From an uncultured Pelagibacteraceae bacterium (GTDB lineage Bacteria > Pseudomonadota > Alphaproteobacteria > Pelagibacterales > Pelagibacteraceae): a DNA stretch of 64,000 nt. Shown one piece after another: positions 6,512 to 38,982 of this stretch. The stretch lies in assembly GCA_902561585.1 (NCBI GenBank), contig CACEQK010000001.1, forward strand, positions 62,001 to 126,000, in the 5' to 3' direction. Positions within the stretch are counted from its first letter, which is position 1; every line of letters starts with the position of its first letter. Below the pieces are notes generated by a model, which had not been told where the DNA came from, did no database searches, and saw only the letters and a list, made by a program, of their open reading frames with translations. The position numbers were made by a program, and so were the translations under genes.

Positions 6512-7641
6512 TAAAATTTTTATTTTTGTTAATATTTATGTTAAATTTAAACACGACTGCGTTCTCCAAAAATGATCTTTATGAAAAAATTGATTTGTTT
6601 GGTGAAGTTATAGAAAATATTAAAAAAGATTATGTAGATGAAGTAGATCAAGCTGAAATGATGGACTCAGCAATTAATGGTGTTTTGCAGTCTTTAGATC
6701 CTTATTCTGCTTATATGTCTCCTGAGCTTTTTAAAGAAATGCAAACTGATACAAAAGGTGAGTTTGGCGGTCTTGGAATAGAAATTGGAATGGAAGCTGG
6801 AGTAGTAAAAGTTATCTCACCCATTGATGATACACCAGCCGCTGAAGCAGGCATAAAAGCTGGTGATTACATTGTAAAAATTGGTAATGATCAAGTTCAA
6901 GGTAAAACTTTAATGGAAGCTGTAAAATTAATGCGAGGTCCAATTGGAACTTCAATTGATCTTACAGTTAAAAGAAAAAATGTAAAAAAACCTTTAGAAT
7001 TTAAAATAACCAGAAAAATAATAGAAGTTAGATCTGTTAACTCTGAAATTATAAGTAAAGAAAAAAATATTGGATACATAAGATTAAAATCTTTTAATGA
7101 AAATAGTGATAAACAATTCTTAAAATCAATTAAAAATTTTGAGAAAAATAAAAAAATTAAGGGTTATATTCTCGATTTAAGAAATAATCCTGGAGGACTT
7201 TTAACACAAGCTATTAATATAACTGATTTTTTTTTAGACGATGGTGAAATAGTTTCAACAAAAGGTAGAAATGTTTCTGAGACAAGAAAATTTTTTGCTA
7301 GAAAGGGTGATGAAGTTAAGGGAAAACCAATTGTAGTACTTATAAATAATGGTTCAGCATCTGCGGCTGAAATATTCGCTGGAGCATTAAAAGATCACAA
7401 GAGAGCAATAATTTTAGGTGAAAGCTCTTACGGTAAAGGATCTGTTCAATCTATAATACCACTAAAAAATGGTGGTGGTATTAGATTAACAATTTCAAAA
7501 TACTACCTTCCATCTGGCAAGTCTATTTCTGAAGTAGGTGTCACTCCTGATATTTTGGTAGAGGAAATAGGCGATGATTTTAAAATTAAATCAGAAAAAG
7601 ATAACCAATTGAATTACGCTATTAAACTGTTTAATTCTTAA
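6508..7641 (+). CDS. ctpA: S41 family C-terminal processing protease with PDZ domain
   Basis: This 377-residue protease has a hydrophobic signal peptide (residues 1-20), a PDZ domain at about 85-165 and an S41 catalytic domain. SASAAEIFAG holds the nucleophile (Ser283 or Ser285), and SYGKGSVQ holds the general-base lysine (Lys310). It would cleave C-termini of periplasmic or membrane proteins. The C-terminus ends soon after the catalytic domain, shorter than some CtpA. It overlaps rsfS by 4 bases (ATGA) and is followed by rppH. Confidence 0.93.
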   Translation: MIKFLFLLIFMLNLNTTAFSKNDLYEKIDLFGEVIENIKKDYVDEVDQAEMMDSAINGVLQSLDPYSAYMSPELFKEMQTDTKGEFGGLGIEIGMEAGVVKVISPIDDTPAAEAGIKAGDYIVKIGNDQVQGKTLMEAVKLMRGPIGTSIDLTVKRKNVKKPLEFKITRKIIEVRSVNSEIISKEKNIGYIRLKSFNENSDKQFLKSIKNFEKNKKIKGYILDLRNNPGGLLTQAINITDFFLDDGEIVSTKGRNVSETRKFFARKGDEVKGKPIVVLINNGSASAAEIFAGALKDHKRAIILGESSYGKGSVQSIIPLKNGGGIRLTISKYYLPSGKSISEVGVTPDILVEEIGDDFKIKSEKDNQLNYAIKLFNS

Positions 7642-34989: not shown

Positions 34990-35499
34990 TTATTTTTTTT
35001 CGCTAGCTGGCTTTTCAGATTTAGTTTCAACTTTTGGAGTTTCTTTTTTTTCCTCATTAGCTTTAACTTCTTCAGTTTGTGGTGCTATTGAGGTTACTTT
35101 TGGTTCTTCGGGTTTTACTGAAACATCAACACCAATTTTCTTTTTAATTTTTTCAGCAATTCTTGCAGATTTTCCTTTTCTGTCTCTTAGGTAATAAAGC
35201 TTTGCTCTTCTTACTTTTCCTGATCTTATGACCTTAATTGACGCAACGTTTGGACTGTAAAGTGCAAAAGTTCTTTCAACTCCTTCACCAAATGATATTT
35301 TTCTGACTGTAAAAGAAGAATTTAAATCTCTATTTTTTTTGGCAATACACACACCTTCAAAATACTGAATTCTCTCTCTTTTTCCTTCGACAATTTTAAC
35401 ACCAATTTTTATTGTATCTCCTGGAGAAAACTCAGTGATTTTTTTGTTAGCAGTTAATTTTTGTATAGCTGCTTTATTTATGTCTTCAATATTTTTCAT
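34990..35499 (-). CDS. rplS: 50S ribosomal protein L19 with charged tail
   Basis: This 169-residue protein holds the L19 core ([22 protein letters not shown]..., about 24-43; [22 protein letters not shown] near 63-84; [20 protein letters not shown] near 96-115). Beyond about residue 125 is an acidic/lysine/proline tail ([20 protein letters not shown]), which most L19 proteins lack. The ATG lies inside the trmD end (14-base overlap), consistent with the rpsP-trmD-rplS operon. Confidence 0.95.
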
Positions 35500-36184
35500 T
35501 TTTTTTTAAGTATTTTTTCCATAGATCAGGTCTCTGGCGACGTGTTATAGCCTCAGATTGGGATAAACGCCACCCCTTTATTTTAGCGTGATCACCAGAA
35601 AATAGCACTTCTGGCACTTTTTTTCCCTCCCATTCTCTAGGTTTAGTGTATTGAGGATATTCTAAAAGATTATTTTCAAAACTTTCCTCTAAAGTTGAAT
35701 TCTCATTACCAAGAACTCCTGGCAGAAGTCTAATCAAAGCATCAATTAAAACAAAAGAAGCACTCTCACCACCTGATAAAATAAAATCACCAATGCTATA
35801 TTCCTCAATATTCCTTGTTTCGAGAAGTCTTTGGTCTACACCTTCAAAATGACCACATAGGATATTTATATTTTTCAACTTGCTGAAAGATTTTATTGTA
35901 TGTTGATCAAGTTTTTTTCCTTTAGGTGAAAGATAAATAATCTTATCTTTTGGAGTAACATTTTTATCTATTGCAGCCGCAACCACATCTGGCTTAAGAA
36001 GCATCCCACTACCACCACCAAATGGAGTGTCATCAACCGTACGATTATTATCAAAAGCGTAATCTCTTATATTTATTACTTCAAGACTCCATTTGTTATT
36101 TTCTTTTGCTTTTTTATATATTCCAACATCAAGCAATCCCGGAAATAAATCTGGGTACAAAGTAAATAATTTTACTTTTAGCAT
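35486..36184 (-). CDS. trmD: tRNA (guanine-37-N1)-methyltransferase
   Basis: This 232-residue SPOUT enzyme methylates G37 in tRNAs to prevent frameshifting. It has [11 protein letters not shown] (6-16), the knot motifs [16 protein letters not shown] (about 105-120) and [12 protein letters not shown] (128-139), and [10 protein letters not shown]. It lies between rpsP (14-base gap) and rplS (overlap), the classic order. Confidence 0.97.
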
Positions 36185-36198
36185 CTTTAAACCTCGGT

Positions 36199-36621
36199 TT
36201 AAGCTTTAGGCTTTTCCTTTTTAGCTTCTGCTTTAGGCTCTTCCTTCTTAGCTTCTGCTTTAGGCTCTTCCTTTTTAGCTTCTGCTTTAGGCTCTTCTTT
36301 ATTTTCTTCGCCTGCTTTTTTTCTATCTTTTTTAGGAATTGCTTTATTAGGATTATTACCAGGTTTAGGCATTGGCATTATTTGCGCCTCACCTAAAATT
36401 CTAGAAACTCTAAGAGTTGGTTGAGCTCCTTTACTCATCCAATACTTAACTCTTTCTGCCTCTACTTTTATTCTTTCTTTTTTATCTTTTGGAAGCAATG
36501 GATTGAAAGAACCAATTTTTTCGATAAATTTACCATCCCGCGGGTATCTGCTATCGGCTATAACTATTTTATAGACTGGTCTTTTTCTAACTCCTCCCAT
36601 TGATAGTCTTATTCTTAACAT
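36199..36621 (-). CDS. rpsP: 30S ribosomal protein S16 with repetitive tail
   Basis: This 140-residue protein has the S16 core at residues 1-80 (MLRIRLSMGGVRKRPVYKIV, then SRYPRDGKFIEKIGSFNP). After a basic linker, residues 108-140 form a repeat of EEPKAEAKK. Standard S16 is about 80-90 residues, so the tail is an addition and probably disordered. It begins the rpsP-trmD-rplS unit and follows ffh by 10 bases. Confidence 0.96.
   Translation of the reverse strand: MLRIRLSMGGVRKRPVYKIVIADSRYPRDGKFIEKIGSFNPLLPKDKKERIKVEAERVKYWMSKGAQPTLRVSRILGEAQIMPMPKPGNNPNKAIPKKDRKKAGEENKEEPKAEAKKEEPKAEAKKEEPKAEAKKEKPKA
36202..36300. repeat. 27-base tandem repeat coding the S16 tail
   Basis: On the plus strand the unit begins GCTTTAGGCTCTTCCTT and recurs every 27 bases with few changes, about 3.5 copies. 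In the reading frame it encodes EEPKAEAKK. The near identity at the DNA level suggests recent slippage or unequal exchange, so copy number may vary between strains. Confidence 0.9.
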
Positions 36622-36631
36622 TTTATACCTT

Positions 36632-37984
36632 TCATTTTAGTTGATTGAGCATTTCATCTGGTATCATTCCAGATGGAATTTTTTTTCCTTGTGACATCTT
36701 TTTCATCATATCTGACATCATTTTAAATTGTTTAAGTAATTTATTTATTTTAGCAACATCTACTCCGGCTCCTTGGGAGATTCTTTTTCTCCTAGAACCA
36801 CTTATGATTTTTGGATTTTCTTTTTCTTTTTTTGTCATAGATAAAATTATAGCCTCATTTTCAATAAGCATTTTCTCATCTATATTAGCCTGATCCATTT
36901 TAGCTTTCATTTTATTTACACCAGGTAGCATCGACATAACTCCTTCCATGCCTCCCATTTTTTTCATTTGTCTCAATTGGGAAAGATAAGAGTCCATTGT
37001 AAAAATACCTTTTTTAAAATCTTCTTCAGTTTCTTTAATTTTTTCTTCACTTAAATCTTGAGCTGCTTTTTCAACAAGTGTAACGACATCACCCATTCCA
37101 AGGATTCTGTTTGCTAATCTGTCTGGATGGAACATTTCAAAGTCAGATACTTTTTCACCAACACCTATATATTTTATTGGTTTACCAGTAACGTGCTTCA
37201 TACTTAAAGCGGCTCCCCCTCTTGCATCACCGTCTACTCTAGTAAGTATTATTGATGAAAGATTTACTGATGTATCAAATTCTTTTGCAACGTTTACAGC
37301 TATTTGACCAGTTAAAGAATCAGCAACCAGAATAGTTTCGGCTGGTTTCGTTAAATCTTTAATTTGTTTTATTTCAGACATCATTGGTAAATCTATCTGA
37401 GTTCGGCCAGCAGTATCAAAAATTATAACATCCGAACCACTTAGATTTGCTGCATTGAGCGCTCTTTTAGCAATATCAATCGGTTGTTGATTTTCTATGA
37501 TCGGTAGATTTTGTATATTATTTTTTTCTGCTAATAATTTAAGTTGTTCTTGAGCAGCAGGTCTATAAACGTCCAAGCTTACAAGCATAACTTTTTTTTT
37601 ATGATTTTTTTCAATTAACTTAGCTAATTTAGCGGCTGAAGTTGTTTTTCCTGACCCTTGTAAACCTACCAATAATATAGAAACTGGTGGAACCGCTTTA
37701 AGATTAATTTCCTCATTCTTTGAACCAAGTATGTTAACTAATTCATCATAAACAATCTTTACTATCATTTGACCAGGTGAGGTTGATCTAATGATTTCCT
37801 GGCCAATAGCTTTTGGTTTTACGTTTTCAATGAAATCTTTCACAACTGGCAAAGCTACGTCGGCCTCTAATAAAGCTAAGCGAATTTCTTTAAGACCAGA
37901 GTCCACTTGTTCTTCCTTTAAGGAAGGTGCACTTTTTAGTTTAGAAAAAATATTTTCTAATTTATTTGTTAAGTTTTCAAACAT
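36632..37984 (-). CDS. ffh: Signal recognition particle protein Ffh
   Basis: The preferred start is the ATG at 37984 (MFENLTNKLENIFSKL), giving 450 residues; an upstream in-frame ATG at 38002 would add six residues that families do not share. It has the N domain, G1 GLQGSGKTT (about 107-115), DTAGR near 190 and TRVDGDARGG near 245, and an M domain with LPGVNKMKAKM and RRKRISQGAGV. It binds signal peptides and SRP RNA. A hairpin-rich leader precedes it. Confidence 0.96.
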   Translation of the reverse strand: MFENLTNKLENIFSKLKSAPSLKEEQVDSGLKEIRLALLEADVALPVVKDFIENVKPKAIGQEIIRSTSPGQMIVKIVYDELVNILGSKNEEINLKAVPPVSILLVGLQGSGKTTSAAKLAKLIEKNHKKKVMLVSLDVYRPAAQEQLKLLAEKNNIQNLPIIENQQPIDIAKRALNAANLSGSDVIIFDTAGRTQIDLPMMSEIKQIKDLTKPAETILVADSLTGQIAVNVAKEFDTSVNLSSIILTRVDGDARGGAALSMKHVTGKPIKYIGVGEKVSDFEMFHPDRLANRILGMGDVVTLVEKAAQDLSEEKIKETEEDFKKGIFTMDSYLSQLRQMKKMGGMEGVMSMLPGVNKMKAKMDQANIDEKMLIENEAIILSMTKKEKENPKIISGSRRKRISQGAGVDVAKINKLLKQFKMMSDMMKKMSQGKKIPSGMIPDEMLNQLK

Positions 37985-38151
37985 TTTTATAACGTCCAAC
38001 ACCTATCGCACTAGTGGGCGAACCTTCGCTGACTAGTGTCGACACTCTTGTTTTCAAGAGCACCGCAAAAACTTAAGTATTTGCGGAAAGTTTGAGGAAC
38101 CTACAATTTGGGGTTTTAAAAGTCAATGAATAATTATACTAATCTACTGTT
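37985..38151. ncRNA. Hairpin-rich ffh-dapF intergenic region, possible structured RNA
   Basis: Three hairpins follow each other: CACTAGT/ACTAGTG (38009-38015 with 38032-38038), which encloses GCGA/TCGC; CTCTTG/CAAGAG (38045-38050 with 38055-38060); and CCGCAAA/TTTGCGG (38063-38069 with 38080-38086). A 12-base palindrome AGTGTCGACACT (38035-38046) offers an alternative fold. This is unusually G/C-rich for the window. TTGACT on the minus strand (38121-38126), with TAGGTT 17 bases on, could start a transcript toward ffh. The SRP RNA GGAA-loop motif is not present. dapF may use TATACT at 38135-38140. Confidence 0.55.
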
Positions 38152-38982
38152 ATGCCTTTGATAAATGCTTTCAGAATGGATGGTTTAGGTAATAGATTTA
38201 TCATCATAGATAGAAGAGAAAAATCCATAAATATACCAAAAGAAAAAATAATTCATTTGGGAAATTTAAAGTCTTTTCATCGTAATATTGTATTTGATCA
38301 AATTATATTTATTGAAAAAGAAATTAATAATACTTTTCCAATAACCATTTTTAATTCAGATGGTGGTGAAGTAAGTGCATGTGGAAATGGTAGTAGGTGT
38401 GTAGCTTACTTGTTAGGCAAAGATTTGAATTATAAAGAAATTAAATTAAAAACTAATAATAGATTGCTTAATGCAAAAATTGTTGGAGAGTACGATGTTC
38501 AACTGGAAATGGGGAAACCTGTATTTGAGTGGAATAAAATTCCATTAAAAGAAAAGTTAAATCACAAAAATATAACTCTTGATATTGATGGTAAAGAATT
38601 CACCGATGGATTTAGCCTCAACGTAGGGAACCCTCATATAGTTTTTTTTGTTAAAGATTGTTTCGAGAATGATTTAAAGATATTAGGACCAAAAATAGAG
38701 CATCACGAATTATTTCCTGACAGAACCAATGTTACTTTTGCTCAAATAGATGATGAAAATAATATTACAGTTAATGTTTGGGAACGAGGTGCAGGATTAA
38801 CAAAAGCGTGTGGAACAGCTGCTTGCGCTACTGCTGTTGCAGCGTTTATCAAAAAATTAACTAAAAATGACATCAATATTAAATTTGAAGAAGGAAGTTT
38901 AAATATTAAAATTGATACGGATCTTAATATATTTATGAGAGGCCCGGTTTCAGAAATAAAACATACTAGCCTTGAAATCTAA
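38152..38982 (+). CDS. dapF: Diaminopimelate epimerase
   Basis: This 276-residue enzyme converts LL- to meso-diaminopimelate using two cysteines. They are visible in ACGNGSRCVAY (about 81-91) and KACGTAACAT (near 221-230). FRMDGLGNRFIIID at the start and NVGNPHIVFFV near 160-170 fit the family. The stop abuts the ftsY ATG. It supplies lysine and cell-wall precursors, with asd about 6 kb away on the other strand. Confidence 0.96.
   Translation: MPLINAFRMDGLGNRFIIIDRREKSINIPKEKIIHLGNLKSFHRNIVFDQIIFIEKEINNTFPITIFNSDGGEVSACGNGSRCVAYLLGKDLNYKEIKLKTNNRLLNAKIVGEYDVQLEMGKPVFEWNKIPLKEKLNHKNITLDIDGKEFTDGFSLNVGNPHIVFFVKDCFENDLKILGPKIEHHELFPDRTNVTFAQIDDENNITVNVWERGAGLTKACGTAACATAVAAFIKKLTKNDINIKFEEGSLNIKIDTDLNIFMRGPVSEIKHTSLEI

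Follow-up and report, generated by a model that had tools for sequence, protein, structure and literature searches.

The window, that is, the whole stretch of 64,000 nucleotides analysed here, comes from a group that ranks among the most abundant bacteria of the ocean. An operon on its minus strand begins with ffh and continues with rpsP, trmD and rplS, and dapF lies across the leader gap. The gap between rpsP and trmD (36185-36198) is only 14 nt long and therefore holds no rimM. The genes and the elements of the leader are collected in Table 1. The original prediction had described hairpin stems between ffh and dapF and had proposed a structured leader RNA reading toward ffh. All of these stems are present on the minus strand, upstream of ffh, with P2 ending 24 nt before the ATG. 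When the minus-strand RNA 38092-37985 was folded alone, it formed P0, P1 and P2 at -37.0 kcal/mol (z = -3.78 against dinucleotide shuffles), and 1 of 200 shuffles was as stable or more stable. The fold and the family match described below both support a structured leader.

Table 1. Genes and leader elements at the ffh-dapF locus of the window
Feature	Position	Strand	Remarks
rplS (bL19)	34990..35499	-	
trmD	35486..36184	-	14-nt gap from rpsP
rpsP (bS16)	36199..36621	-	10 nt past ffh; the gene that the motif stays with
ffh	36632..37984	-	first gene of the operon here; ATG at 37984, a small correction to the original prediction
3' tail GUUGG	37996..38000	-	8 nt past P2; GUUUGG, GUUGG or GCUGG there in many relatives
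RF01793 match	38001..38053	-	42.4 bits, gathering cut-off 35
P2, core hairpin of the "ffh motif"	38009..38038	-	7-bp lower stem, C.C mismatch, A.C, 4-bp upper stem, loop AGGU; arms 38009-38022/38025-38038 (86% complementary)
Palindrome AGTGTCGACACT, 12 bases	38035..38046	.	arms 38035-38040/38041-38046
P1 hairpin CUCUUG-AAAA-CAAGAG	38045..38060	-	directly 5' of P2; arms 38045-38050/38055-38060; a stable hairpin recurs at the same place in relatives
P0 hairpin CCGCAAA/UUUGCGG	38063..38086	-	arms 38063-38074/38075-38086 (92% complementary); similar hairpins in many relatives by eye
Putative -10 box TAGGTT, weak	38098..38103	-	17-nt spacer to the -35 box; by eye
-35 box TTGACT	38121..38126	-	TTGAC at a similar distance in relatives
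dapF	from 38152	+	other flank of the leader gap

The window was compared with Rfam 15 at curated thresholds. The hairpins belong to a known family, RF01793 ("ffh sRNA", the ffh motif), although the original prediction had found no family that clearly fitted them. The only other match in the region 37950-38160 was a chance-level one to SNORA12 (E 2). Likewise, no Rfam family besides RF01793, L19_leader included, was found at the motif in eight further loci and the window at E ≤ 5, with overlapping matches within one clan merged. The bacterial SRP RNA (4.5S, RF00169) resembles the motif as a hairpin RNA with internal mismatches that is tied to Ffh by gene name, but it sits elsewhere in Pelagibacterales genomes. 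As the covariance search returned no RF00169 match at the motif locus, SRP RNA was rejected as its identity, in agreement with the original prediction.

The ffh motif was reported by Meyer et al. in 2009 (PMC2704228) from the ffh/dapF gap of Pelagibacter as well as from Rhodobacterales, Sphingomonadales and Rhizobiales. The published description, one hairpin that has a bulge, two conserved cytosines and a stem with covariation, applies to P2 (38009-38038), so that the RNA and the gap are the same in both studies. That paper cites metatranscriptome detections of the motif, considers a role in ffh regulation possible and otherwise leaves the function open. The present results differ in that the motif was also found with rpsP in genomes without detected Ffh, and that the one hairpin of the published text is extended here by P1 and a 3' tail. 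Thus, the RNA itself is already published, and the association with rpsP, the P1 hairpin, the 3' tail and the retention without SRP appear to be new here; no earlier report of these four appeared in the extracts of the literature matches listed, which were mostly open-access. Expression has been recorded twice more: an "ffH leader RNA" is among the expressed RNAs of Bartonella bacilliformis (PMC7717549), and an RF01793 transcript is listed for an intergenic region of megaplasmid b of Mesorhizobium huakuii (PMC5596092), unlike the chromosomal operon position described here. Plasmid records searched with leader queries gave no credible match.

To describe the core hairpin, 77 distinct P2 sequences from across the class were aligned, with the PS1/OCS116 clade and the genome G306, which are treated below, left out. 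In the consensus, a lower stem of 7 bp is followed by the C.C mismatch, and an upper stem of 4 bp carries a loop of 3-5 nt. The position next to C.C, which is A.C in the window, is a standard pair in 24 of the 77 hairpins and mostly A.C in the rest. Both sides change in 11 of the 12 pairs while 94.2% of the cells remain paired, and 160 cells are changed on both sides; shuffles gave 47.5 such cells and slid controls 3-37. The core hairpin thus covaries strongly, and the paired substitutions that the original prediction had named as supporting evidence are present. The invariance of C.C in this alignment is partly a matter of construction, because the scan for P2 demanded this mismatch; the scan missed one of 130 leaders, that of locus L155, which also has C.C by eye.

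The elements around P2 were compared in 152 distinct leaders, among which close relatives remain, and stability z-scores were calculated for 76 of them. P1 recurs as a structure, with a mean z of -2.15 in the 76 leaders; the control values were -0.05 in 32 nt taken from farther upstream and -0.42 within the gene. At a fixed window, P0 gave a mean z of -0.47 in relatives, that is, no stability signal, and it is not claimed as a conserved element. The GUUUGG/GUUGG/GCUGG-like tail recurs 3' of P2, most often 8 nt past the stem, and was missing by the pattern used from 19 of 86 distinct hairpins. Upstream, TTGAC occurs 134 times within 130 nt of P2 in the 152 partly closely related leaders, and 121 of these occurrences lie 70-99 nt from P2. 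This clustering fits a promoter just before the hairpins. As to the minus-strand promoter of the original prediction, TTGACT and TAGGTT 17 bases on were confirmed by eye, but a generic promoter scan did not list the pair.

The palindrome AGTGTCGACACT had been read as a sign of alternative folds. It exists in the sequence and overlaps P1 and P2, so its pairing could compete with both hairpins, but it is not conserved: it was found in 16 of 277 loci, all of them, the window included, returned by a search within its own genus. A separate search of E. coli 16S and 23S rRNA, made at the level of hairpins, found none like P2 (best match 7.6 bits, flanks only) and gave no sign of rRNA mimicry.

The genes that follow the motif were then compared by their coordinates. 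Of 197 genomes sampled from the window's order, 175 gave a match to RF01793; in a class-wide sample of 152, the Rfam model found it in 40, 34 of them over the cut-off. These counts, like that of SRP RNA in Pelagibacterales given below, were obtained with stricter filters, by which weak matches were lost. The model detected no motif in the other 112 class genomes, though 140 of the 152 have rpsP; Ffh was found in 132 of the 152 (E ≤ 1e-80). In 37 of the 40 genomes with the motif, rpsP follows it on the same strand at a distance of no more than 3.7 kb; ffh comes immediately after the motif, likewise in 37 of the 40. The three matches without rpsP all end at a contig edge. In G315, ffh follows the motif and then the contig ends. 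In the other two, G238:C15:45603-45653 and G224:C63:3975-4027, the contig ends within about 100 nt of the motif, with neither ffh nor rpsP before the end; in these two genomes as well, the motif might stand apart from ffh. One genome, G266, has rpsP downstream of the motif and no ffh. A set of 80 named loci, the best 80 of more matches, was fetched together with rpsP, so that rpsP is present there by construction; the motif count in this set (76 of 80) is not independent, because 32 of the 77 training rows of the model used (R1) come from the same loci.

G266 is one of the 18 genomes of an order, the PS1/OCS116 clade (G266 and G368-G384); six of the 18 have a completeness of 90% or more and a contamination of 5% or less. 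RF01793 was found in 14 of the 18, and rpsP is the next gene after the motif in all 14. On the far side of the motif, dapF is divergent in 13 of the 14 loci; at the 14th, the contig begins too near the motif. Five named loci of this order (L165-L169), whose scores are identical, probably come from the same genomes as some of the 14 and were not added to the count. A structured RNA thus precedes a ribosomal-protein operon in 37 of the 40 class genomes and in 14 of the 14 PS1 genomes, G266 being part of both counts.

The signal recognition particle (SRP) is near-universal in bacteria. In the PS1 order, the Ffh query, which was also the one used on the class sample, found nothing in any of the 18 genomes at E ≤ 1e-20. 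The profile of the SRP54 GTPase domain (PF00448) was positive in 14 of 14 controls and in none of the 18 PS1 genomes over the cut-off, where it gave one sub-threshold fragment of 20.5 bits. Since this profile covers both SRP GTPases, Ffh and FtsY, it is also the basis for the absence of FtsY in the order. SRP RNA (RF00169) was detected in none of the 18 genomes and in 11 of 14 controls. This result weighs less than the protein searches, because in 117 sampled Pelagibacterales genomes the same model found SRP RNA in 97 (77 over the curated cut-off) and missed it in 20. SRP RNA was likewise missing from the window's own genome, and we read this gap as incompleteness because that genome is 71.6% complete and seven genomes of the same genus have the RNA. 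Judged from these genome searches, the PS1/OCS116 order appears to have lost SRP altogether. No report of such a loss was found in the extracts of the literature matches listed; survival without SRP is known from the laboratory, for example in Streptococcus mutans (PMC8546722). An order in whose 18 genomes SRP was not found would offer a natural experiment on membrane-protein targeting without SRP.

Some further features of the PS1 loci were recorded by inspection. At L166, the stretch read beyond rpsP contains dapF, an MtaB-like gene and a redoxin-like gene by eye, and no ftsY. A match to rimM was lacking at several PS1 loci and found at others. The rpsP of G266 (L126, 952-1467, minus strand) carries a long repeat tail rich in alanine, proline and glutamate past the S16 part, and an acidic repeat tail of another kind is present at L166.

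A second comparison was provided by genomes with ffh unlinked to rpsP or undetected. For this, the region upstream of rpsP was searched in 20 genomes, 11 with ffh on another contig and 9 without an Ffh match at E ≤ 1e-80. In G306, a model whose training left this genome out found the motif upstream of rpsP (E 3e-4), while ffh lies on another contig behind a GcrA-like gene (by eye), with no motif near it. By the Rfam model, the same motif scores 25.1 bits, which is below the cut-off, and it was not reported at E ≤ 1 in the genome search. A weaker match upstream of rpsP was obtained in G285 (17.8 bits, E 0.026 and 0.007), whose leader shows, by eye, a TTGACT box and a hairpin resembling P1. It may be a third case of the motif with rpsP apart from ffh, the status of ffh in this genome being given by the missing match at E ≤ 1e-80. 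The other 18 genomes showed no credible motif at rpsP (next best E 0.44); some of their stretches end at contig ends, and they say nothing either way. In the 11 stretches around unlinked ffh genes, no motif was found below E 2.

The motif thus stays with rpsP when other genes of the operon have been lost or moved, as seen in the PS1 order and in G306 and, more weakly, in G285. It occurs upstream of rpsP with or without ffh and persists where SRP components were not found. As the PS1 order and G306 keep the motif at rpsP without ffh, we conclude that the RNA goes with rpsP, not with ffh. The description of the RNA as a leader for ffh therefore holds for its position in the window, but the comparative evidence links it to rpsP, and the name of RF01793 probably points to the wrong gene.

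A structured RNA that is kept before a ribosomal-protein operon and is not tied to ffh is most simply explained as a ribosomal-protein leader. We consider it likely that RF01793 is a protein-bound leader of the rpsP operon. The identity of the protein was approached through the genes after rpsP in 60 motif loci whose sequence extends at least 5.5 kb beyond it; rpsP is present in all of them by the design of the fetch, and some queries were picked at random, so that a repeat may differ slightly. On the same strand, rimM, trmD and rplS follow rpsP in 58, 55 and 49 of the 60 loci. This order would also suit a leader of the same operon with another ligand, namely bL19, TrmD or RimM. Within at least 5.5 kb downstream of rpsP, however, rplS was not found in 11 of the 60 loci, trmD in 5 and rimM in 2, although a longer operon or a gene acting in trans is possible in such cases; moreover, the rpsP-trmD gap of the window holds no rimM, and several PS1 loci gave no match to this gene. 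A ligand other than bS16 is accordingly a possibility that we regard as unlikely. Since each of the three genes was not found in some loci, bS16 is the best-linked candidate ligand.

On the comparative data, it appears fairly probable that the RNA is the leader of the ffh-rpsP-trmD-rplS operon and, most likely, an autoregulatory site for bS16. From its position and conservation we infer regulation of the operon, bS16 as the ligand and repression as the effect. In the proposed mechanism, the RNA would act in cis at the 5' end of the ffh-rpsP-trmD-rplS mRNA, the gene served being rpsP and ffh a passenger. Free bS16 that is not taken up into 30S subunits would bind P2, with the C.C mismatch between covarying stems and the GUUUGG-like tail as its presumed contacts, and the operon would be expressed less as a result, on the pattern of other ribosomal-protein leaders. 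The step affected may be the translation, the attenuation or the stability of the mRNA. The distance from P2 to the start codon ranged from 17 to 121 nt in the leaders compared, because of which simple masking of the ribosome-binding site by P2 cannot be a general mode of action. Counting against the bS16 reading are the result of the rRNA search, the 112 class genomes without a detected motif, the credible motif at rpsP in no more than 2 of the 20 genomes with ffh unlinked or undetected, and the Mesorhizobium transcript listed from a megaplasmid. A candidate S16 leader has been proposed in Flavobacteria by Eckert et al. in 2020 (PMC7247131), where a structured RNA lies upstream of rpsP(-rimM) and S16 is the suggested ligand. 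This candidate gives a precedent; its likeness to RF01793 lies in the description, a structured RNA before rpsP, and the Flavobacteria belong to another phylum.

A general element of the 5' untranslated region without a dedicated protein ligand, such as an RNA stabiliser, a processing site or an attenuator that yields a short RNA, seems improbable to us. The transcripts recorded in Bartonella bacilliformis, in Mesorhizobium and in metatranscriptomes (PMC7717549, PMC5596092 and PMC2704228) are compatible with such an element, and a run of at least four T within 12 nt past P2 is found in 51 of the 152 leaders. The run is missing in the other 101, however, which led us to reject P2 as a general intrinsic terminator, and the fixed architecture of 7 bp, C.C and 4 bp with a recurrent tail, tied to one operon, suggests specific recognition.

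Autoregulation of ffh by a leader that senses the status of Ffh or SRP would agree with the position of ffh directly downstream in 37 of the 40 class matches and with the possible role in ffh regulation named in PMC2704228. This explanation is very doubtful given the 14 PS1 genomes in which the motif persists although Ffh, SRP54 GTPase and SRP RNA all went undetected, and given G306, whose motif accompanies rpsP instead of ffh. A DNA operator, with palindromes bound by a dimeric repressor, has a negligible likelihood and was rejected: ACTAGT and AGTGTCGACACT are indeed exact palindromes in the window, but the latter was found in 16 of the 277 loci, all of one genus, and the stems change on both sides with the pairing kept, which fits an RNA.

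Returning to the bS16 leader, we lean slightly toward the whole of the following reading: RF01793 would be a widespread alphaproteobacterial autoregulatory leader for bS16, misnamed after ffh, and the free-living marine PS1 order would have lost the entire SRP pathway (Ffh, FtsY and 4.5S RNA), ffh having been cleanly excised between the leader and rpsP. An orphan RNA family that has been named for protein targeting since 2009 would thereby become a testable ribosomal-protein leader.

Elsewhere in the window, a second Rfam match was recorded on the minus strand at 7177-7489, where RF02800 ("Rickettsia sRNA47") scores 60.4 bits against a cut-off of 60, here outside Rickettsia.
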